Part shown: piece after piece, positions 3,319 to 26,905 of the stretch
Layout: each line of letters opens with the position of its first letter
How positions within the stretch are numbered: the first letter of the stretch is position 1
From: a virus
DNA: 36,266 bases
Reading direction: 5' to 3' (one strand)
Virus record (IMG/VR): IMGVR_UViG_3300030328_002343
Span: 1 to 36,266 of that record
Notes under the pieces: generated by a model
The model's database searches: none
What the model was told of the DNA's origin: nothing
Seen by the model: the letters and a program-made list of their open reading frames with translations, nothing else
Made by a program: the position numbers and the translations under genes

Positions 3319-4043
3319 TGGCACACGTACCAGGACATGCAGATTGGATTGCAGCGATACAACAGCAAATACAAAATCAATTAAGTAATAACCAACAAGG
3401 GTCAACAGGGCAAACCTCTCAGTATCAATCTCCTATGGATGCTCTTAGCAGTATGTTTTCACCGTTTGGAGTTTCAGCAGATGATTTAACAAAATATTCT
3501 GGATTTATTGGAGATATACCAGAAGAACTTTATGGACTAACAGACCCTAACGCAGATATATATAAACAGTTTAGAAGTGAAAGACAAGGAAGATTGTCAG
3601 ACCAATTAGGAGAATCATACTCTGGTTTGCAACAAAGTCTATTTACAGGGTCAAGAGAAGCAAGAGGAATGCAAGGAAGAAGTGGTTTAGTCTCAGGTAG
3701 AAATATACAAGCTGATATGAGTAGAGTTGCTTCTATGCAAGGAGAGAAGTTAGGCTCTGCATTTACTAGAGGGTTATACGATATTGAAGAAAGTATTGTA
3801 GACAAGGTGGGAGCAGAAAGAAAATACTTAGCTACATTAGAAGCACAAAGAAGAAGTGATGCACTTAAACTTGCAGGATTAGCAGGATTATTTGATGACA
3901 ATGAAGAAGAGGCAGTACCAACTGGAACACAAATGCCTGCATTTACTATTCCTGGTGTTTCAAGTACAGACATACCAAGTTTTAATTTTAACTTTCCAGG
4001 TGGGGGATACACTTATAATGGAGATGAAGGAGATACAGTATAA
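3318..4043 (+). CDS. Probable internal virion protein, 241 aa
   Basis: The start overlaps the previous stop (TAATG). The N-terminus is Gln-rich (residues ~14-40), the middle is helical and Arg-rich with a GRSGLVSGRN segment, and the C-terminal ~45 residues are Pro/Gly/Phe-rich and probably extended. There are no catalytic motifs. It sits in the ejection-protein block, so it is probably a structural component of the virion core or tail. The exact role is unknown. Confidence 0.7.
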   Translation: MAHVPGHADWIAAIQQQIQNQLSNNQQGSTGQTSQYQSPMDALSSMFSPFGVSADDLTKYSGFIGDIPEELYGLTDPNADIYKQFRSERQGRLSDQLGESYSGLQQSLFTGSREARGMQGRSGLVSGRNIQADMSRVASMQGEKLGSAFTRGLYDIEESIVDKVGAERKYLATLEAQRRSDALKLAGLAGLFDDNEEEAVPTGTQMPAFTIPGVSSTDIPSFNFNFPGGGYTYNGDEGDTV

Positions 4044-5313: not shown

Positions 5314-8300
5314 ATGCCAAATGGAACTCAATCAAGATTATTAAATCTAATAGGCTCTGAGCAACCTTCTGCTCAAAGTTCCCTACCTAAGCTACCTAGC
5401 TTAAATTCAGAATCTAGGCTATTAAGCCTTATATCTCCCCAAGAAGACTACCAAGAAGAGAAAAAGGATAGTAGGTTATTAGGTTTAATTAGACCAGAAA
5501 TACCTACATTTTCTGAAGCATTCTTTAGTAGCTTTGCAGAAGAACTTACTTTTGGTAAACTTTATAACGACCCAAGATTAGATGCAGATGAGCTTCCTTC
5601 AGGAGCTAAAGCAGGTAAAATGTTAGGTGCAGGTGCTGCTTTCTTTGGAGTAACAGCGTTAGCTACTGTAGCAACAGGTGGTCTAGGTGGATTAGCAATG
5701 CTTGGTTCTACTGGAGCTAGATTAACAAAAGGAGCTCAGATATATAACAAAGCTAGAAAAGCTGGTGATGTAAAAAAGATGGCTCATGGTGTTGCAGAGG
5801 CTGGTATTGGAACACGTAATTCTCTTTTATTAAGAGCGTTAGGTAAGAATGGAGTTCAAAAAGGGTACATAGATAAGTTTATGAAGCTTGCTGAAAAAGA
5901 TGTAGGTGCAGCAAGAAGGTTTGTTCTTGGTAGAGAAATGGGAAGAGAAGCTTTAATTTTTGGTACTACAGGACAAATGATGCAAGAAGATGACGCATCG
6001 TTTAAACAGCGTGCAGTAGCATTTGGACAAGATGCAGCAGCAGGAGCTTTATTTGCTGTAGCTCCAGCATTCCAATTTGCAAACAATCCTTACATTAAAA
6101 GCATGGGTAAGAGCAAGTCTTCAGAACTTGGTGCTTATTTTATGTCTGGTTTTATTACAAGTCTACCAAATGAAAATGGACTAGACTTAGGAAGTAGAGT
6201 ATTAACAGGAGCGTTGTCTACTGGAGTGGGAAAACTATTTGGTGGTGCATCAATAACAGCTTCTAAGTCTGATATTAAAAATGCCTTATCAAGAATAGGT
6301 ATTACAAACGAATCTAAATTAAGTGAATATGCTGATATATCTATGGGTATTATTAATAAAAATATTGTTAAGTCTGTAGATGAATTTTATAAAACAGTAG
6401 ACTTTACAAGCATGGCAAAAAGCAATGTAAAGGGTAAGAGACTTACAGGTTCACCTGTTAAAGTGTTAAGAGTTTATCTTGATAAAAAAGATGGATTGAT
6501 GAAAGTAGATTATCAAACATTATATAAAAATGGTAAAGTTAAAGACACAACAACATCATCATTTAGTGAATTTAGTAAAAAACATAAAAGAAAAGATAAC
6601 GACTTAGTACAAGATATTAAACATAATTTAGATGCTGATGGTAATGACTTTTCATTTTTTAAGAATCAAAAAGACTTAGAAACATTCCTTAACACAAAGA
6701 AGTTTGGTATTGTTACAGCAAATACCCCTAAATACTTTAGCAACAAAGCTTTAGGTTTATATGGAGAAACAAGAAACGAAGTTTTAATAAGAGAGTTACT
6801 TTCTAGGGGATATAAACGTAAGGATATTATGTCTTCAGAAGGGTTTTACTTAGGTGCTAGTGATGGAAGAGGATTTATTGTAAAAGGATTAAAAGAAAAA
6901 GACGCAGTAGAACTATCTAAAATATTTGGTCAAGAGTCTGTTACAACACATAAAGGTCTTCTTAATGTCAAGAGAGCTACAAGAAGAGTAAAAAAATTAG
7001 AGAACGGTCAACCTGTAAAAGATGAAAAAGGTAACTTTGTTTATGAGAATGTTGGTTATAAAGTTGGTGATAAAAAAAATGAGATTACTCAAGTTGCTTA
7101 CAACTTAAAACAAGCTATTAAGAATAATATTGTTTATGGAAAAACAGCAAAAGATGAAAAAGGATTTACAAGTGTATATTCTCAGGATGGAACTAAGCTA
7201 CATTTTAGTTATAAAGTAGACTGGGATACTGATGTAGGCTTAAGAAACCCTACAATGAATCAAACACAAAAGCTTGCAAGAGCAGATGAAATATTGCTTG
7301 AATCATCTAAAAAAGTAAAAAACAATACTCCAGAACGACAAGCTATTTATAAAGAAATTAAAAACTTAGAAGTAGAAGCAGGTATTGCAACAAGAGGAAA
7401 AGGTAAGCTTTCTAATACACAACACATAGCATTAAAGGCTAATACATTTGGTAAAACTTCTATAACTCAAATGACAGACGATGAATTAATTCAATATAGA
7501 AACTTAATTGACAATCAACCTTCATATACAACACATTTAGATGATGTTAATGGTGGAGTTGTTTATGACCAAGGTCCTTTAATAAGTGGATTTCAAAAAG
7601 CTTTAAATCGTGTGTTGCCAATTAGCACAAAGTATGGAAACTTAGGAAGACTATTAGGAAGTAAAGAACTGATTAAGATAGAAAAAGATTTAGATAAAAT
7701 GGTTCAGTTAAAAGAAGAATTAAAAGGTACTTATAGGACCGTAAGAGATGAAATGAAAGAAGGATATAGCTTTCATCAACTATCAAAATCAGAACAAGCA
7801 TTAGTTGATAAAGAGTTATTATATCATATTGACCCAAGGTTTAGTTCTTTAAAAAGCGATTTAAACAAAAGACAAAAAGCTGCATTAAAAAAAGCATTAA
7901 ATCTTCATAAGAAATATGTAAAACAAACATACAGACAAATGAAAAATGCATATAGAAAGAGTGATAAAATAAAAAAAGGAGTGCAAGAAAAGGTCTTTGA
8001 TGCTAAAAAAGGAAAGTTTGTAATGAGAGACATAACAGAAGTAGATAACTTTGTTAGTCTTACTATAACAGAAGAAGCAGCAGAATTATTCTCTAAACAA
8101 GGTGGAACACTAAGAGAAGAGATGTTAAAAAATATCATTAAAACAGATAAAAGATTTAAGAGAGGTGGAGAATTTTTTGAAGAAGCTTTAAAGGGCAAAA
8201 AATCTCAGTATGAAATAGCAGAAGAAATATTAGACGATACATTATCTCACAGTGCAAAACATGGAATATACGGTGCTCAATACTCACGTACAGGTAACTT

Positions 8301-10206
8301 AACACCAAAAATATTTTTAGATTCTGACGGAGCAATTATATCTGGAGTTGACAATATGAAGTTAAAAGTTGGAGATGAATTTAATGGAACAAAAATTGGA
8401 AAAGTTATTGATGTTTATGTAGAAGATTATGGTCAATTAATGGATTTATACGCAGGTAGGCAAGCAAATATTACAGCTACTACTAAATATTTTGGTGCTG
8501 ATGGAATTGAAGCTGGTGGTTTTGCTTCTAAAAGCTTTTCAAAAAGAATTAGACAAATAGAAAAAGAGTTGGGGAATAGAAAAGACATAGCATACGCTAG
8601 TGATGAGTTATTAAAAGATATGGATATAGTATTGCGTGGAGATTCTTATGATGAAGTTATATCTCCTGTATTAAGACAAGCTGTATCATGGACTGCAGCA
8701 ACTGGGTTAAGTAGCCCTAGGTCTGCATTAAAAAATATATTCTTAGGTCAAGTTCAAAACATTACAAGTTTTGGTGTAAGAAAATACTTAAGAACAATGG
8801 GTAAAATGATGACAGATAGCGACTTTCAAGACCAAGTATATAAAAGAGCAGTTAAGATTGGAGCAATGGATGCAGGTGAAACATTTGTAGAGACTGTTGG
8901 TATTAGAGGTCAAGGAGTTCAAGCAAGAATACAAAGAAATTTAACATACTTTATGAGAACTGCAGAACAAAAAAACAGATTATTTTCTGTTGCTGTTGGT
9001 GATATAGCTGCCGATGATGCACTAAAAGTTTTAGGTAATAAAACAGATGGAGTGTTTTTTCAAATGGATAAGTCTCAAGCAAGAAGAGTATTAGACGATG
9101 TATTGCAAGTAGAAGGATGGGAAAAGCGTATTAATAAAGGATTTACTGAGGCTCAAAAGAAACAGATATATTTCAAGGCTCACACAATGACTCAAGGTTT
9201 AGCAGAGGCTGCATACCTTCCAAAAGGTATGAGTCATAAGTATGCAAAACCATTTACTTTGTTTTATCGTATTGCTTATCGTGTAACAGAAAATGTTTAT
9301 AAAAATGCATATAGACCATTACTAGAAAATGGAGAAGTTGCCCCTATGATGAGATATATTGCAGCGTCAGCAGGTGCAGGATATGCTATTCAAAATATGT
9401 ATTATACTGTACATAACACTGACCCTGTAAAGTTTCTATCAGCACCAGAAAGATTTTGGAATTACTTTGTAGATGGTGAAGGTTTAGGTCTTTTCTCAGC
9501 ACTTGCAGAAACAGATAGACCTATTGCTCAATCCTTAACTCCAGCTATTGTACAGAATGCTCAAAAGCTTATAGGAGCTACATCGCTTGTTATTCAAGGA
9601 ACGTTTGCAAATGATACTCCAGGACAAAGAGAAGTTTTATTAAAAGAAGCTGGAAGACAAGCTATTCAAGCTGTACCAATAGCAAATGATATTGTAAGTA
9701 GTATTACAAAAAGAACGAATAGAGAAACACTAACAAGATTTACAACATTTAGACAAAAACAAGGTGCATACAAAACTGACATACTTGGAACTGACTATAG
9801 CACAAGAGCTAGCTTTAGTCCTGCTGTTACAAAAAGCTTAATGTATAAGCAATTACAAGCAAACCTTTATTCAGATAGAACTCCAGAAGAAAAAACAAAA
9901 GACTTTTACGCAGCAGTTGCTTATTTACAACATCAATATGAAATGGCTAACACTACAAGAATAAGTAAAGACAAAGCTTATAACTATGCGTTTAAACGTG
10001 CCTTAGCTTACCTAGAAGATTCTAAGCCTATAACATTATCTAAAAAGAAGACACAAGGAAAGACTTCATCTGATTATGATGACTTTACTGCTAGATTAAC
10101 TAATAAAGAATTAATGGAGTTAAAGAAGTTAGAGCAAGTTTATGCTGTTAAGTACAAAGAGATGCGTATAGCTATACTAAAGCAAAAAAATCAGCATCGC
10201 TATTAA
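5314..10206 (+). CDS. Giant internal virion/ejection protein, 1630 aa
   Basis: The largest gene in the window and the last before the terminator. The N-terminus holds three copies of the motif SRLLxLI (residues 7-13, 34-40, 53-59) in a disordered, Pro/Ser-rich stretch. A Gly/Ala-rich hydrophobic segment follows at ~100-135 (AAFFGVTALATVATGGLGG), and another hydrophobic stretch lies near 1345-1360. Most of the rest is helical and Lys-rich. Length and position match the giant ejection proteins of short-tailed phages that cross the host envelope. I see no clear transglycosylase or peptidase motif. The Shine-Dalgarno site is weak, so translation may be coupled to the upstream gene 5 nt away. Confidence 0.8.
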   Translation: MPNGTQSRLLNLIGSEQPSAQSSLPKLPSLNSESRLLSLISPQEDYQEEKKDSRLLGLIRPEIPTFSEAFFSSFAEELTFGKLYNDPRLDADELPSGAKAGKMLGAGAAFFGVTALATVATGGLGGLAMLGSTGARLTKGAQIYNKARKAGDVKKMAHGVAEAGIGTRNSLLLRALGKNGVQKGYIDKFMKLAEKDVGAARRFVLGREMGREALIFGTTGQMMQEDDASFKQRAVAFGQDAAAGALFAVAPAFQFANNPYIKSMGKSKSSELGAYFMSGFITSLPNENGLDLGSRVLTGALSTGVGKLFGGASITASKSDIKNALSRIGITNESKLSEYADISMGIINKNIVKSVDEFYKTVDFTSMAKSNVKGKRLTGSPVKVLRVYLDKKDGLMKVDYQTLYKNGKVKDTTTSSFSEFSKKHKRKDNDLVQDIKHNLDADGNDFSFFKNQKDLETFLNTKKFGIVTANTPKYFSNKALGLYGETRNEVLIRELLSRGYKRKDIMSSEGFYLGASDGRGFIVKGLKEKDAVELSKIFGQESVTTHKGLLNVKRATRRVKKLENGQPVKDEKGNFVYENVGYKVGDKKNEITQVAYNLKQAIKNNIVYGKTAKDEKGFTSVYSQDGTKLHFSYKVDWDTDVGLRNPTMNQTQKLARADEILLESSKKVKNNTPERQAIYKEIKNLEVEAGIATRGKGKLSNTQHIALKANTFGKTSITQMTDDELIQYRNLIDNQPSYTTHLDDVNGGVVYDQGPLISGFQKALNRVLPISTKYGNLGRLLGSKELIKIEKDLDKMVQLKEELKGTYRTVRDEMKEGYSFHQLSKSEQALVDKELLYHIDPRFSSLKSDLNKRQKAALKKALNLHKKYVKQTYRQMKNAYRKSDKIKKGVQEKVFDAKKGKFVMRDITEVDNFVSLTITEEAAELFSKQGGTLREEMLKNIIKTDKRFKRGGEFFEEALKGKKSQYEIAEEILDDTLSHSAKHGIYGAQYSRTGNLTPKIFLDSDGAIISGVDNMKLKVGDEFNGTKIGKVIDVYVEDYGQLMDLYAGRQANITATTKYFGADGIEAGGFASKSFSKRIRQIEKELGNRKDIAYASDELLKDMDIVLRGDSYDEVISPVLRQAVSWTAATGLSSPRSALKNIFLGQVQNITSFGVRKYLRTMGKMMTDSDFQDQVYKRAVKIGAMDAGETFVETVGIRGQGVQARIQRNLTYFMRTAEQKNRLFSVAVGDIAADDALKVLGNKTDGVFFQMDKSQARRVLDDVLQVEGWEKRINKGFTEAQKKQIYFKAHTMTQGLAEAAYLPKGMSHKYAKPFTLFYRIAYRVTENVYKNAYRPLLENGEVAPMMRYIAASAGAGYAIQNMYYTVHNTDPVKFLSAPERFWNYFVDGEGLGLFSALAETDRPIAQSLTPAIVQNAQKLIGATSLVIQGTFANDTPGQREVLLKEAGRQAIQAVPIANDIVSSITKRTNRETLTRFTTFRQKQGAYKTDILGTDYSTRASFSPAVTKSLMYKQLQANLYSDRTPEEKTKDFYAAVAYLQHQYEMANTTRISKDKAYNYAFKRALAYLEDSKPITLSKKKTQGKTSSDYDDFTARLTNKELMELKKLEQVYAVKYKEMRIAILKQKNQHRY

Positions 10207-10369: not shown

Positions 10370-11707
10370 TTATTCGTTGGAAGCGTTTAAACGGTGTCTA
10401 AATTTTTCCTTAGCTGCTTCTGGTGAATCTAATATTGAAGCACTATCTCCGTGGTATCCAACATCAAATTTACATGTTGTTCCATACCTGTTTTTAGCAA
10501 TAATAATCTGTTGACCAAATTGACCATGTTCTGCTTCTTCATATTCATATACATAAGGGTAATAGTTGAAGATTACGATTTCAGCGTCTTGCTCTAGATT
10601 ACCAGACTCAGCTAAGTCGCTGAGCCTTGGAATCTTATCTACACGATGCTCAATGTTCCTATTTAGTTGAGAGACTAATATAACTGAACAATCAAGTTCT
10701 TTTGCAAGCCATTTATATCTTCTTGTCACTTCTGCGATACGATGTCTAACTTCTCTGTTATCACGTGATGAAAACTCAATAAAACCAATGTGGTCATCTA
10801 TAATGACGTCTGGTCTTATCTTTTTAGCTTCGTTTATGCCTTCGTCTAGACTTCTTAAGTTATCAAATAAATGAAGCGATTTGTAATATTTTTTTATAAA
10901 AGTTAAACCTTTTTCTATTTCTTCTCTGTGGTCTGATGCATTGTTTCTCATTTGTTTATTAGGAACTTGTGTATGCATTGCTAGGAACTTTTTAACAATC
11001 TCTACTCTTGGCATCTCTCTGCTTATAAACATCACTTTCTTTCCATCAAGTATCATATTTTTTGTAATATTTAAAGCTAATGTACTTTTACCATTTCCTG
11101 GTCTACCAGCTATAATGCTAATTTCTCCTTTAGTCATACCGACAATAGCTCTATCTACTCTATCAATTCCAGTTTGTACTAAGTTTTTCTTAGCAAAGAT
11201 AGATTCTATAAGCTCATCATCTATACCTTCCATAGACTGATGTTCCATATTTATCATGTCTGTAAAATTCTCTGATATTTTTTCTAAATAATTAATGTCA
11301 GATGCTACATCTTTATATGATGTATCTTTCTCTATTCTGTCTTTAAATCCTACAATACGCTTCCATAGCTGTCTTCTTACATATAAATCATAAATTGTTT
11401 TACAATGTGTTTTGAAATTTCCAGTTGTTGCTATACCATCTAATAATCCAGTTAAATAATAAGTAAGCTTAAATCCTTTTTCTCCTAAAAAATTTGCAAC
11501 AGTAGTTAAGTCTATATCTTTATTAGATTTATGAAGATAATATAAAGCTCCCCAAATTTTTTCATGGTCTTCCATGTAGAATATTTTGCTAGTTGTTATA
11601 TATTGCATAGCAACCTGCATTAGCTCTGGTTCTTTTAGTATACAGCCTAAGACATCTTTCTCTGACATCCCACTATACATCTTTGATATTTCTATATTTT
11701 TATTCAT
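10370..11707 (-). CDS. DnaB-type replicative DNA helicase
   Basis: 445 residues, close to the usual DnaB length. It has an N-terminal helical domain (~15-110) and a RecA-type ATPase domain from ~178. The Walker A motif is GRPGNGKS (201-208), Walker B is VIIDDH (301-306), SQLNR lies at 346-350, and a DLAESGNLEQDAE segment at 364-376 precedes the DNA-binding loop region. The enzyme would unwind DNA 5'-3' at the phage fork. It starts after GAGGAG, 1 nt past the upstream stop. It is the last gene of the minus-strand block, ending at the shared terminator. The C-terminal HRLNASNE carries a copy of the dispersed GTTTAAAC palindrome. Confidence 0.93.
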   Translation of the reverse strand: MNKNIEISKMYSGMSEKDVLGCILKEPELMQVAMQYITTSKIFYMEDHEKIWGALYYLHKSNKDIDLTTVANFLGEKGFKLTYYLTGLLDGIATTGNFKTHCKTIYDLYVRRQLWKRIVGFKDRIEKDTSYKDVASDINYLEKISENFTDMINMEHQSMEGIDDELIESIFAKKNLVQTGIDRVDRAIVGMTKGEISIIAGRPGNGKSTLALNITKNMILDGKKVMFISREMPRVEIVKKFLAMHTQVPNKQMRNNASDHREEIEKGLTFIKKYYKSLHLFDNLRSLDEGINEAKKIRPDVIIDDHIGFIEFSSRDNREVRHRIAEVTRRYKWLAKELDCSVILVSQLNRNIEHRVDKIPRLSDLAESGNLEQDAEIVIFNYYPYVYEYEEAEHGQFGQQIIIAKNRYGTTCKFDVGYHGDSASILDSPEAAKEKFRHRLNASNE

Positions 11708-12058
11708 TTAGTTCTCCTCTAAATCTGGTGGCAAACTTTCTAATCTTTTCTTTTCTTTGATTAGTTTGCTTTCATACCTCTTATTTTCATTTCTTAATAT
11801 ACCTATAAAGTAATATACATCAAAACCCTTTTCATCTAATTCTTTCCTTTCCCATATATTTATACAATGGTTTATAATTTCATCTTCTATATCTTGACAA
11901 GATTTTAATAAAGTGTATGAAGTAAGTTGGTCTAAGGTAGTAAGGAATAAAGCGTTTAAACGCTCTAATGTATTGTCTTCTATATTATTTTTTAGCTTGT
12001 TAATCATCCTAGGATAATTTTTTAAGGTGTTTGACCACCCACAAGCTGGGCATCTCAT
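11708..12058 (-). CDS. Hypothetical protein with N-terminal CxxC, next to helicase
   Basis: 116 residues. The N-terminus MRCPACGW could be half of a zinc site; the rest is helical and charged (LIKEKKRLESLPPDLEEN at the end). It overlaps the upstream zinc-ribbon gene by 4 nt and abuts the DnaB gene. A helicase-loader or replisome role is possible from position, but there is no sequence signature for it. A GTTTAAAC copy falls in LERLNAL near residue 34. Confidence 0.7.
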   Translation of the reverse strand: MRCPACGWSNTLKNYPRMINKLKNNIEDNTLERLNALFLTTLDQLTSYTLLKSCQDIEDEIINHCINIWERKELDEKGFDVYYFIGILRNENKRYESKLIKEKKRLESLPPDLEEN

Positions 12059-12387: not shown

Positions 12388-12517
12388 AGTTTGGATTCAC
12401 CTTTGATAGTTGCATTTGTTTACGTTTTTCTTCTTTGGATTGGTTTTTTTCTGTAGCTTCTATAATCTTTTTAGCTATAGATAGAATAGCTTCAATTTCA
12501 TGCCTATCTAAGACCAT
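12368..12517 (-). CDS. Small charged protein with C-terminal CxxC, 49 aa
   Basis: Starts at ATG 12517 after GGAGAAG with 6-nt spacing, and overlaps both neighbours. The first ~35 residues are a charged helix (ATEKNQSKEEKRKQMQ); the end is NCEVCDD. The tight ribosome site and coupled overlaps support a real gene. Function unknown. Confidence 0.6.
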   Translation of the reverse strand: MVLDRHEIEAILSIAKKIIEATEKNQSKEEKRKQMQLSKVNPNCEVCDD

Positions 12518-12731
12518 TGCTATCTTCTCCATTATCATAGCTGTATTCTGCTACAACCTTACCCTGTTTTGTTGATATATGTTTAGTTTTTATTGGATGA
12601 CCTTCGTTTCTTAAATCCCATATTCTGGCACTTAAACGAAAACAACCAAAACTCTCTAAAGCAGTTAATGGAGTAATACGCTCTCCATTTTTTAATGCTA
12701 CAAGTATCATATCATTTTGATTCATCGGCAT
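12504..12731 (-). CDS. Helix-turn-helix protein (HTH_39-like)
   Basis: About 75 residues from the start at 12731 (GAGG 9 nt upstream); an alternative start is 12725. The segment ITPLTALESFGCFRLSARI followed by WDLRNEGHPIKTK matches the small winged-helix family often listed as HTH_39 in phages, with the recognition helix around SARIWDLR. It is the clearest DNA-binding fold in the window, which makes it one candidate reader of the GTTTAAAC sites; that is inference. It overlaps the upstream gene by 20 nt. Confidence 0.75.
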   Translation of the reverse strand: MPMNQNDMILVALKNGERITPLTALESFGCFRLSARIWDLRNEGHPIKTKHISTKQGKVVAEYSYDNGEDSNGLR

Positions 12732-12972
12732 CTTTAACTTCCTCTTCATCTTTATTAAGTTCATTAATTACACTATTAACATAATTTGACGCAAGAAATC
12801 TTCTTTCATTAATTTGTTGCTCAAGATTTTGAATCTCTTGACCTAATTGATTAGCTCTAACAAATGACATCTGCCCTTCGTTACTTAGGTCACTCATAAC
12901 AAATTCTATTTCTTTGTCATTATGATTAATAATCATTTTTTGTTCTTCTTTTTTTTCTATTTTATCTACCAT
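12712..12972 (-). CDS. Small helical protein, 86 aa
   Basis: Start chosen at ATG 12972, which has GGAGGAG 6 nt upstream; an earlier TTG is unlikely. Residues ~40-75 form a Gln/Glu-rich helix or coiled coil (LGQEIQNLEQQINERR) and the C-terminus is acidic (DEEEVKDADESK). No family recognised. It is part of the overlapping early gene chain. Confidence 0.7.
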   Translation of the reverse strand: MVDKIEKKEEQKMIINHNDKEIEFVMSDLSNEGQMSFVRANQLGQEIQNLEQQINERRFLASNYVNSVINELNKDEEEVKDADESK

Positions 12973-17732: not shown

Positions 17733-17932
17733 TTTTCCTCCTTTGTAAGTTGTTCTATAAGTTTTTTTTGCATTGATGCTGGCAATTCTGTGGTCTTGAC
17801 CCACTCATCACCATCATGTATTACCTCTTCATCTTTAGCACTTTCAGAATAAATAATATAATCTTCATTATCAAATTTTAGAAAATTATTATCTTTATCT
17901 TTCAGTAAATAATCTGTGTCATATAATTTCAT
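17729..17932 (-). CDS. Small acidic protein, 67 aa
   Basis: Starts after AAGGAGGAAGT. The first half is beta-like with repeated short strands (YLLKDKDNNFLKFDNEDY), the second an acidic helix. It lies directly downstream of the GroES gene with a 4-nt overlap, so the two are co-translated. No family recognised. Confidence 0.65.
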   Translation of the reverse strand: MKLYDTDYLLKDKDNNFLKFDNEDYIIYSESAKDEEVIHDGDEWVKTTELPASMQKKLIEQLTKEEK

Positions 17933-18198
17933 ACTTCCTCCTTGATTATAGCCATTACATCTAACTCTCTAAATATAAAGAATTCTTCATCATCAAACAA
18001 GAACTTAGTTGCTACGTGATTTTGAAACATAACATAGTCTCCTTTAGAAACATGTTTTGTTTTTTCCCCAACAGCCATTATAACTCCTCTAGTTTGCAAT
18101 TCTTTGTTTTGTGATGATATAAGAATTCCACTATCTGTAGTCTCTTTTATTGCATCTGGTTTTAATACTATTCTATCCCCTATTGGTGTTAACTTCAT
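17929..18198 (-). CDS. GroES/Cpn10-like co-chaperonin
   Basis: 89 residues, slightly shorter than bacterial GroES. MKLTPIGDRIVLKPDAIKE opens as in Cpn10; TTDSGILI is the mobile-loop region that contacts GroEL; GDYVMFQNHVATKFLFDDEEFFIFRELDVMAII matches the C-terminal beta barrel. Phage versions (for example T4 gp31) replace host GroES to fold the capsid protein in host GroEL. No GroEL gene is in the window, so host GroEL would be used. Confidence 0.88.
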   Translation of the reverse strand: MKLTPIGDRIVLKPDAIKETTDSGILISSQNKELQTRGVIMAVGEKTKHVSKGDYVMFQNHVATKFLFDDEEFFIFRELDVMAIIKEEV

Positions 18199-20427: not shown

Positions 20428-21383
20428 ATACTCCTCCTTTTTTCTTCTTCATCTTGGTTATGAATTTGTTTTAAATGTTGATTTAATCTATCTAGACAGC
20501 TAGAAAGATAAGAGTGTTCAAATGCTCTATAAGTTTTACTCTTATAACCATTTCTTTTGTTATAAGCCTCAAACTCTTTTGTGTAAGACTGATAATTCTC
20601 AATTAGCCTAACGTAACTACTGGAAAACTCTCTTTTTTGGTCAAGAGTTCCATGATTAATATAATCTAAGCATATAGATTCAGCTTTTTTAAACTTATTG
20701 TAAATATTCATTGGGTCGTTTAAACGCTCTAAGAACCTATTGTATCTTTCTTCCATCATCTTAGACTTATAGTCCTTTTCGCTAATAAACTTAATAGCAT
20801 TATATTTTTCTTTCACTCTTTTATTTCTTTTATCAGACGCTTTCATATAAGGCATTGATGGGTCTAAAGATAGATGTAAATATTTAACTTTCAATCCATC
20901 TTCATAACAAGCCTCTTTAATACCTTTAAGGCTTTTTAGTCCAAACAGATTTTTCCCCCAGCTCTCTTTTCCTCCGTAGTTATTGTATTTTACTTTTCTA
21001 GCTGATTTGATTCTCTCTGGGTGCTTTCCTCTTCCGTAAGCAAATATCCAGCTGGTTTCATACCAGAGAGGCTTTCCGTCTTGAAAGATATTTAAGCATC
21101 CGTTCTCTATGGTAGCAATACGCTCTTGCCAATTATCTGTTCGTCTCTTGTATACTTTATATTCTATATGGTTTTGTGCTAAGACAAAATCAATACCACT
21201 CTTAGACGGGGAGTCGTTTAAACGTAAGTGTTCATCTTTTACTTTATTCCACTCTATCCCAAGCTCTCTAGCTCCGTAAGATACAAAGTTTTTTGGTAAT
21301 CCTTTTTCTCTTGCTCTGATAGGTTCTGTCTTAGTGTTCCAAGTTGACCAATCAAAAACTATATTATTTAATGTGTTATTCAT
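20424..21383 (-). CDS. Hypothetical protein, 319 aa, weak PD-(D/E)XK-like motif
   Basis: Largest early gene without a clear family. Residues ~60-80 contain SGIDFV-x6-IEYKVYKRR, an Asp-x(n)-Glu-x-Lys arrangement that might be a nuclease core; the rest is Tyr/Lys/Trp-rich and helical, with the C-terminal third probably coiled. It has the best promoter in the window upstream (21416-21444), so it is likely made early and in quantity. Two GTTTAAAC copies, both read as RLN. The nuclease idea is weak. Confidence 0.7.
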   Translation of the reverse strand: MNNTLNNIVFDWSTWNTKTEPIRAREKGLPKNFVSYGARELGIEWNKVKDEHLRLNDSPSKSGIDFVLAQNHIEYKVYKRRTDNWQERIATIENGCLNIFQDGKPLWYETSWIFAYGRGKHPERIKSARKVKYNNYGGKESWGKNLFGLKSLKGIKEACYEDGLKVKYLHLSLDPSMPYMKASDKRNKRVKEKYNAIKFISEKDYKSKMMEERYNRFLERLNDPMNIYNKFKKAESICLDYINHGTLDQKREFSSSYVRLIENYQSYTKEFEAYNKRNGYKSKTYRAFEHSYLSSCLDRLNQHLKQIHNQDEEEKRRSI

Positions 21384-22738: not shown

Positions 22739-22770
22739 CACGCCTCCTTGTTTGCGTTAATTTATAAGAA

Positions 22771-22798
22771 CCTATAAATAAAAAATCCATATTGTCAA
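22771..22798 (-). promoter_or_regulatory. Promoter near the origin region
   Basis: -35 TTGACA (22793-22798), 16-bp spacer, -10 TATAGG (22771-22776), minus strand, 33 nt before the ATG of the 99-aa gene. A second weaker candidate lies upstream (TTGACA 22861-22866, 17 bp, TATGGA 22838-22843). Confidence 0.55.
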
Positions 22799-23047
22799 TA
22801 AAAAAAATAAAAATATTTTCATAGCTTTTAAAAAGTTTCCATAGCATCAAAAACGTCTTTTGTCAAGCTCTTTTTTTTCACTGGCTCAAAACTGCTTAAC
22901 TTGTTCAAATCAAACCCTCACAGAAAGCCCCAGGATACCCCTAGAACGCATTAAAAAAGTTTTTTAGTGTGAATATATGATTAAATGAATTTATAGAGGA
23001 GAAAGCTTTTTAATATCTTAGTAAAAAACCTCCATAGTTAATACGCT

Positions 23048-23141
23048 GTTTAAACGCTCTCTAGTTATCCACAAGTTATACACATAAAAGTTTTCCACAA
23101 GTTATACACAAAATGTGGATAAGTCTACACGCCGTTTAAAC
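23048..23141. other. Probable replication origin: five DnaA boxes framed by GTTTAAAC sites
   Basis: Boxes: TTATCCACA (23065-23073), TTATACACA (23076-23084), TTTTCCACA (23091-23099), TTATACACA (23102-23110), and TTATCCACA on the minus strand (23114-23122). Two are perfect strong boxes and three are one-base variants, all within 58 bp. Each side carries the identical 16-mer GTTTAAACGCTCTCTA (23048-23063 and 23134-23149). DnaA-box clusters mark origins opened by DnaA. No dnaA gene is visible, so host DnaA would be recruited. Confidence 0.8.
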
Positions 23142-23166
23142 GCTCTCTAAAAATAGGTAAAAAAAA

Positions 23167-23184
23167 AGGGCTATTTCTAGCCCT
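23167..23184. terminator. Intrinsic terminator next to the origin
   Basis: AGGGCTA/TAGCCCT, 7-bp stem with a 4-nt loop, A run before and CTTTTTCT after, so usable in both directions. It ends the minus-strand transcript of the 23207-25065 genes and insulates the origin. Confidence 0.8.
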
Positions 23185-23206
23185 CTTTTTCTGTTCTGGT
23201 TTTTAT

Positions 23207-23677
23207 TTACCAGGTCTTTTTGCTAAACTCTTCCACCTCTTCTGGCGTAACCCAGCCAGCTGGAGTGTCTATTGCCTCCGTGTTTTGAAAGTCCTTAACA
23301 ATGCTAAGGCTGGTGTTTTTACCTCCACCTATTACGTAGCTTTTATTTTCGTCAATCTTTACAAGCTCCGTTGGCGTTTGTATGTATGCCTCGCCCTTAA
23401 TCTGTCTGACTTTACAGGTTAAGTTGAGCGTTTGGAATAAGCCGTTTAAACGCTCTCTCGTTGTCGTTGTGTTCCATCCAGCTAAGGTGAACCATAGCCC
23501 TCTTCCAATAAAGTTGAAATTTGCTATCTCGTTGCCGTGTAAAAATAGCGTGCTTTCATTTATTGGGCTGGTCTTGTCATTATATGCCAAGTGTCCAACT
23601 GTTACTGATGTATTTCCTAGCGTCATAGGTTTTTTATTTAAAAAAGCCTCTGCTGTAGTCTGTGTTATTTTTCTCAT
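23207..23677 (-). CDS. Hypothetical phage protein, 156 aa
   Basis: Beta-rich sequence: SVTVGHLAYNDKTSP, ESTLFLHGNEIANFNFIG, GLWFTLAGWNTTTTRERLNG, then a helix ending VTPEEVEEFSKKTW. It resembles small phage proteins of unknown function that replace host metabolic control. Starts after AGGAGG, overlapping nothing, 3 nt after the upstream stop. GTTTAAAC at 23444 is read as ERLNG. Base composition of this and the next genes looks less AT-rich than the rest. Confidence 0.7.
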   Translation of the reverse strand: MRKITQTTAEAFLNKKPMTLGNTSVTVGHLAYNDKTSPINESTLFLHGNEIANFNFIGRGLWFTLAGWNTTTTRERLNGLFQTLNLTCKVRQIKGEAYIQTPTELVKIDENKSYVIGGGKNTSLSIVKDFQNTEAIDTPAGWVTPEEVEEFSKKTW

Positions 23678-24234: not shown

Positions 24235-25065
24235 TTAGGATTTGGTTATAGCTCCAAATATCTCATCAGCTAGTTGCTCACCAGCTGACTGCTTAACATC
24301 CTCAGGCTTGATAGACCCATACTCTGTAACTTCTGTGTCTATTAAATCCCAAAGCTCCCAAGTTGGTCTGCCTTTAGCTATTGCCTCATTAAGAGCGAAA
24401 AACTTACTAATTGTAAGCTTATAAGCTCCGTATTTAGCTGGCAATTTCACGTGATATTCACCAACTCCACAACATAGGCACGTGTGAGAACTCATCTCTT
24501 GTATACGTGTCTTATTGATGTTAAAACCGTGGTCACAAGCTACTTCATCCGTTCCGTCACACTCTAGTTTTAGGTTACGGTTAACGTCTTTCTGTAGACC
24601 CTCTAAGCTAACGGCTTTGGTTGGAAATTTGCCAATTTTCTTGACAATACCATTAAGCGTTTTCTTTAGCTTTTTAGTGGCTACTGTTGCCGTCATTTTA
24701 CCCTCTAAACCAACAGCCAGAGCCATTTTCTTAAATTCGCCCTTATGTCCGTGCTTGTTGTTGTCAATGGCGTGTATTAATTCATGAACCAAAACATCCA
24801 AAACCCTAGCTGAATTTTTAGCCTGTGTCGTGGATATGTTTAGCGTTATCATGTTAACACCGTGGGCTACGTCTTTTCTGTAACAGCATCCTAGCGTGTG
24901 ATTTCTGTCACCTTTGCCTGTCATGCTCCCAACGTTTAAACGTAGTTTGTTTGGAACTCTCAATTTAGCTGGCGTAAATACCTGCTTTTGTAGCTCCTGT
25001 GTTGCTTTCTCTAACCAGGTAGAAATTTCTATCTCTATGTTGGTTATTTTTATTGCTTTTTTCAT
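24235..25065 (-). CDS. SprT-like zinc metalloprotease
   Basis: Start at ATG 25065 (AAGGAG), 276 residues. HELIH at 94-98 with His105/His107 in HGHKGEFKKMALAVGL is the SprT/Spartan active site; the C-terminal half has HTCLCCG, part of a zinc ribbon. Cellular relatives cut proteins cross-linked to DNA; phage versions are known but their targets are not settled. Here it is expressed from its own promoter (25100-25128) in the early block. GTTTAAAC at 24934 encodes LRLNV. Confidence 0.82.
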   Translation of the reverse strand: MKKAIKITNIEIEISTWLEKATQELQKQVFTPAKLRVPNKLRLNVGSMTGKGDRNHTLGCCYRKDVAHGVNMITLNISTTQAKNSARVLDVLVHELIHAIDNNKHGHKGEFKKMALAVGLEGKMTATVATKKLKKTLNGIVKKIGKFPTKAVSLEGLQKDVNRNLKLECDGTDEVACDHGFNINKTRIQEMSSHTCLCCGVGEYHVKLPAKYGAYKLTISKFFALNEAIAKGRPTWELWDLIDTEVTEYGSIKPEDVKQSAGEQLADEIFGAITKS

Positions 25066-25099
25066 TGTTCGTTCTCCTTGTTTTGTTTGAACTGTATTG

Positions 25100-25128
25100 A
25101 ATATAATCAATGTTTTGCATTCTGTCAA
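25100..25128 (-). promoter_or_regulatory. Early promoter of the SprT-like gene
   Basis: -35 TTGACA (25123-25128), 17-bp spacer, -10 TATATT (25100-25105), minus strand. GTTTAAAC at 25135-25142 is 6 bp upstream of the -35 and is flanked by G and C runs that extend the palindrome with one mismatch. Confidence 0.8.
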
Positions 25129-26399: not shown

Positions 26400-26586
26400 A
26401 GAGCTAGTGTATAACATTGCCCTCTTAAGGAGAGAAATGTTCCAACTAATAGAAAGAGTAATGTTTAATGAATCATTCATTAATAAATATATAGAAATGA
26501 AGAAAGATACCAAAAAATTTAATAAATATTTACAAGATGAAATACAAAAGGGAGCAGATGAAAAAATTAAAGATACCAAAAAATAA
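26365..26586 (+). CDS. Small helical protein, 73 aa
   Basis: Starts after AAAGGA with 5-nt spacing. Basic ends and a long central helix (LVYNIALLRREMFQLIERVM). Overlaps both neighbours. No family recognised. Confidence 0.65.
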   Translation: MAKQKKTKPTNKELVYNIALLRREMFQLIERVMFNESFINKYIEMKKDTKKFNKYLQDEIQKGADEKIKDTKK

Positions 26587-26905
26587 AGAACTTATGCTTT
26601 CTATTAACGGTCACGAATACAATATTCGCTTTGTATCTGGAAAAAAAGCCGACTATGGCTCAAATGAAGGAGAGATACTAGGAGCAATATCTATGAGTAA
26701 TTGTGAAATTATATTAGAGCATAATATGAAAGATAGCAAAATACTAGAAGTTTTGTGCCACGAAATAATGCACGCAATAACATTTGGTACAAGCTTAGAA
26801 ATGACAGAAACACAAGTACAGGTAGTATCTAATAACCTTTATCAATTAGGCTTTGGTGACTATCTATGGAAAAAAGCAGGAGGAAAATATGATTCCAAAC
26901 TATGA
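26558..26905 (+). CDS. HExxH zinc metalloprotease-like protein, 115 aa
   Basis: Start chosen at ATG 26558 (GGGAG just upstream). The segment SKILEVLCHEIMHAITFG holds HEIMH, a zinc-protease motif following a hydrophobic helix; the N-terminal half is beta-rich (YNIRFVSGKKADYGSNEGEI). The size matches small phage Zn-peptidase-like (ImmA/SprT-fold) proteins. Substrate unknown. It is the second HExxH protein in the window. Confidence 0.72.
   Translation: MKKLKIPKNKELMLSINGHEYNIRFVSGKKADYGSNEGEILGAISMSNCEIILEHNMKDSKILEVLCHEIMHAITFGTSLEMTETQVQVVSNNLYQLGFGDYLWKKAGGKYDSKL

Follow-up and report, generated by a model that had tools for sequence, protein, structure and literature searches.

A conserved, palindrome-framed DnaA-box array as a candidate oriC-like replication origin in a tailed phage

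The sequence analysed here (the window, 36,266 nucleotides, part of a 39,184-bp IMG/VR record of an uncultivated phage) has genes for DnaB, a Sak-type annealing protein, an exonuclease, terminase, portal and capsid; in a 43-kb relative (G007), the matches further specify a P22-like portal and an SU10-like capsid protein. The largest gap within its leftward early block, at 22742-23206 (465 bp), is gene-free, and the only repeats in it are DnaA boxes (TTWTNCACA) and the palindromes that frame them, five boxes in 58 bp lying between two identical copies of GTTTAAACGCTCTCTA:

23048-23063, plus strand: left framing palindrome GTTTAAACGCTCTCTA, 9 bp from its GTTTAAAC core to the first DnaA box
23065-23073, plus strand: DnaA box TTATCCACA, perfect
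23076-23084, plus strand: DnaA box TTATACACA
23091-23099, plus strand: DnaA box TTTTCCACA
23102-23110, plus strand: DnaA box TTATACACA
23114-23122, minus strand: DnaA box TTATCCACA, perfect, inverted
23134-23149, plus strand: right framing palindrome GTTTAAACGCTCTCTA
23444-23459, plus strand: third GTTTAAACGCTCTCTA copy, with one mismatch, within gene 23207-23677

This layout agrees with the original prediction, which had placed here, in the largest gap of the early block, five boxes (two perfect, one inverted) framed by identical 16-mers at 23048 and 23134, with a third near-copy at 23444. The cluster goes beyond chance, as is characteristic of a DnaA-dependent (oriC-type) origin, the largest in 400 third-order Markov simulations of the same composition being two boxes per 58 bp, and it is conserved (see below).

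The array is surrounded by the following features:

22757-22860: most A/T-rich stretch of the sequence, overlapping the promoter region and about 200-300 bp from the array
22838-22866, minus strand: leftward promoter-like site, TTGACA-N17-TATGGA, at the same place in 8/8 genomes
22915-22956: conserved non-coding block with a CCCTAGAACGCAWTAAAA core, from alignment conservation
22950-23047: stretch of 78% A/T adjoining the array on the left, a candidate unwinding region
23159-23192, minus strand: terminator for leftward transcription arriving from the right, its core identical in 8/8 genomes

In the alignment, the -10 element of the promoter-like site reads TATGGA in the window and TATGAA in the other genomes (consensus TTGACA-N17-TATGRA). 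Given the terminator and the outward-facing promoter around it, the array likely lies outside transcribed units, a location that would favour an origin over an operator. Rfam returned no match, and consensus folding found little covariation support, mainly for the terminator and the opposed DnaA boxes. The A/T-rich stretch that had been noted near the array is also present (the most A/T-rich 60-bp segment starts at 22757-22773), and A/T content within 350 bp to the left of the array ranks among the highest in each genome tested. Examined as an unwinding region, the DNA directly to the left has 78% A/T, the A/T peak lying 200-300 bp off within the promoter region; the overlap of this peak with a promoter counts against an origin.

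That this gap also has a conserved promoter-like site fits a regulatory island, in which DnaA, as a host transcription factor, would control the promoter at 22838-22866, the palindromes would serve as operators and replication would start elsewhere. DnaA does regulate promoters in bacteria, and palindrome orientation follows leftward transcription (87 versus 25, see below). However, the array lies about 200 bp upstream of the promoter, past the usual reach of a repressor, typical DnaA operators are smaller than arrays of up to eight boxes, and the switch in corrected GC skew described below maps near the array. We consider this explanation unlikely.

No DNA match to a close cultured relative was found among 50,697 phage records, terminase and DnaB matches in cultured phages were below 60% identity, and a host search with portal and terminase against genome contigs gave no match. 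DnaB identity divides the IMG/VR relatives into clade 1 (85-93%) and a sister clade (64-69%); seven clade-1 records (G001-G007) span the site, and an eighth, G008, stops short. In all eight genomes covering the site (window included), the array is framed by two GTTTAAAC copies and sits downstream of the homologue of gene 23207-23677. The left gap from palindrome to box is 9 bp in 8/8 and the right gap 12 bp in 7/8 (11 in the window). Strict boxes range in number from two to eight, with five in the window, G002 and G003, which share an identical box spacing of 11/15/11/12 bp, and eight in G005; G001, G004, G006 and G007 each have two strict boxes and one degenerate box. Fixed gaps and this box pattern are as expected if the boxes and their distance to the frame were under selection, and the presence of only two strict boxes and one degenerate box in four relatives counts against an origin.

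Box numbers that expand and contract between relatives, as binding capacity might, would suit a site that titrates or captures host DnaA, with neither array nor palindromes initiating replication; box clusters also control DnaA in bacteria, DARS1 and DARS2 being examples (PMC11853086). Two or three boxes per genome are nevertheless few for this purpose, and neither the fixed spacing to the palindromes nor the conserved terminator would be expected of such a site, which makes titration improbable.

Within the sister clade, G009, G010 and G011 have an unframed three-box mini-array in non-coding gaps, in different gaps, which counts in favour of an origin. No array was found in the parts read of G013, L126, L128 and L129; DnaA use is on this evidence not ancestral or not universal, which counts against an origin. 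A 29-bp three-box unit, TGTGGATATGTGTATAAAATTGTGGATAA, occurs in different gaps of the related G009 (near 20678) and G010 (near 3665-3700), as if mobile. Some genes also differ in distribution: the GroES-like co-chaperonin gene of the window (17929-18198) was not found in clade-1 relatives, and of two SprT-like metallopeptidase genes flanking a divergent region (24235-25128 and 26537-26905) only the second is present in the sister clade.

The framing palindromes belong to a phage-wide set. GTTTAAAC occurs 30 times in the window against 1.25 expected (24-fold enrichment), and between G007 and the window its aligned copies are identical in 17/17 cases, compared to 23% of control 8-mers. The palindromes are concentrated in the leftward early block (~25 sites), at positions conserved relative to the array. 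Of 27 palindromes 11 are intergenic, in a block that is ~14% non-coding, and more than half lie within genes; a flank, CGCYYTCT, is found on one side relative to transcription (87 versus 25), the pattern of many sites in one orientation that marks L5-type stoperators. By score, the framing palindromes are ordinary family members, which rules them out as the best sites of the family; they stand out by their fixed distance to the boxes instead. The proposal that the framing links the palindromes to replication control thus stands in part: the conserved 9/12-bp spacing hints at such a link, but most palindromes occupy other parts of the early block, over half of them are within genes, and they are oriented with transcription. 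The pattern of sites resembles operators or stoperators more than components of an origin.

The sister clade is almost without GTTTAAAC and is enriched for YGAGCAC instead, a motif switch between clades that suggests a co-evolving binding protein. Its GAGCAC core reaches 39-69 copies in 21 kb, on both strands, in L019, L022 and L024 (the sister-clade contigs L019-L024 are G009-G013). In the gene upstream of dnaB (window position 11954; L066), clade 1 has GTTTAAAC (encoding ERLNALF) and the sister clade has GTGCTC (EHLKHLF) at about the same place. A search for the palindrome-binding protein did not find it, the only HTH found being HTH_39 at 12504-12764. This winged-helix protein is strongly conserved in both clades and is unlikely to be the binder, because it is equally conserved in the sister clade, which lacks the palindrome and has another motif.

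A whole-genome skew check had been suggested for the site. In raw GC skew the sign flips near 10 kb and 25.5 kb, at the points where gene direction changes; because it tracks gene direction it is uninformative on the origin, and was rejected as evidence. With four-fold sites, a gene-strand term in the model and the eight genomes pooled, the strand-corrected leading/lagging effect was positive in 8/8 genomes, with the best switch 1.5 kb to the left of the array (permutation p = 0.016, or about 0.02, at the array; 0.04 for the best position in the scan). This agrees with an origin near the array; given the modest effect, the relatedness of the genomes and a second maximum at -13 kb, we take it as no more than supportive.

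Two features bear on replication proteins:

10370-11707, minus strand: DnaB-like replicative helicase
11708-12058, minus strand: conserved all-helical protein of 116 aa, encoded immediately upstream of dnaB, a helicase-loader candidate by position only

The 'primase/helicase' PHROG match of the window DnaB spans the helicase part. The product of 11708-12058 yielded a confident helical model (pLDDT 88) with no PDB or viral fold match, and was discarded as a known loader; it had one sub-threshold Rep_1 match (18 bits). None of ten genomes has DnaA or DNA polymerase A, and the G007 families include no initiator, polymerase, primase, integrase or partition protein among the matches listed, in a scan that omitted some proteins, the largest virion protein included. 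There was no Rep family above the cut-off and there were no iterons, as an iteron plasmid origin would have. The numerous early proteins without assigned function could include an initiator that escaped recognition. Gene 23207-23677, next to the array, gave a poor structure model (pLDDT 59). Elsewhere in the window, a 1630-aa open reading frame at 5314-10206 probably encodes a large virion protein.

Two DnaA-array patterns match 26 viral contigs each, the second matching none when reversed. Genes near 15 of these arrays include those for terminases, portal, DnaB and primase, with no DnaA or Rep family near the 15 in the Pfam list. In a search for palindrome framing among the other DnaA-array contigs, an enriched palindromic 8-mer was present in only two. 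Other viral contigs (L033, L029, L031) have 8-11 DnaA boxes, many at 11-bp spacing. In the open literature searched, DnaA boxes in phage genomes were mentioned no more than briefly. A DnaA-type phage origin had been called unusual, but similar arrays in ~50 other viral contigs make the trait wider than this phage, and under-reported rather than unique.

Altogether, the conserved array, its terminator and promoter bounds, the lack of another recognisable initiator and the agreement of corrected skew leave a DnaA-using phage origin, as originally predicted, the best-supported reading, and 23048-23149 is probably the core of an oriC-like phage origin opened by host DnaA. From the sites, their conservation and their layout, we infer that host DnaA would occupy the inverted box as well as the head-to-tail boxes, which are spaced at about one helical turn, A/T-rich DNA beside the array would melt, the phage DnaB helicase would be loaded and host polymerase would then copy the genome. 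The right-hand terminator would keep transcription from entering the array, and the left promoter would fire away from it. A protein, probably phage-encoded, would bind the two framing palindromes among its ~25 early-block sites and may tune the origin. If so, phage DNA copying would be tied to the host cell-cycle initiator, coupling infection to host growth state, and origins in uncultivated phages could be located by a simple sequence signature; through the palindrome set, a connection between the control of early genes and that of the origin would be open to test. With more doubt than conviction, we also envisage a tailed-phage family that lacks its own initiator and mimics oriC, a palindrome-bound phage protein gating host DnaA, and, given the ~50 contigs, a common but overlooked strategy.

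Among known systems, the phage lambda origin, like the one proposed here, is a phage theta origin that relies on host replication proteins. It differs in that the lambda initiators are its own O and P proteins, not DnaA. Nearby transcription matters at the lambda origin (PMC5043065). Phage T5 has an injection stop signal in which palindromes and repeats accompany DnaA boxes, the same parts as here (PMC13250531). A comparable stop signal for DNA entry would, however, need a fixed genome end and staged entry, whereas contig ends vary from relative to relative and give no hint of a fixed terminus, and the array falls within the early block; we regard this role as very improbable. Mycobacteriophage L5-type stoperators share the ~25-30 short sites per genome, mostly in one orientation relative to transcription, and there too the motif differs in a related clade (PMC6550527); here no repressor or integrase was identified, the core is palindromic, more than half of the sites are in genes and two copies frame DnaA boxes. 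Finally, oriC and DnaA-box origins of plasmids and prophages, such as the P1 plasmid origin, share head-to-tail boxes about one helical turn apart, an A/T-rich neighbour and an intergenic position. Compared to these, the array described here has no adjacent dnaA, iterons or Rep initiator, and is set in a tailed-phage genome within a phage-wide palindrome frame.
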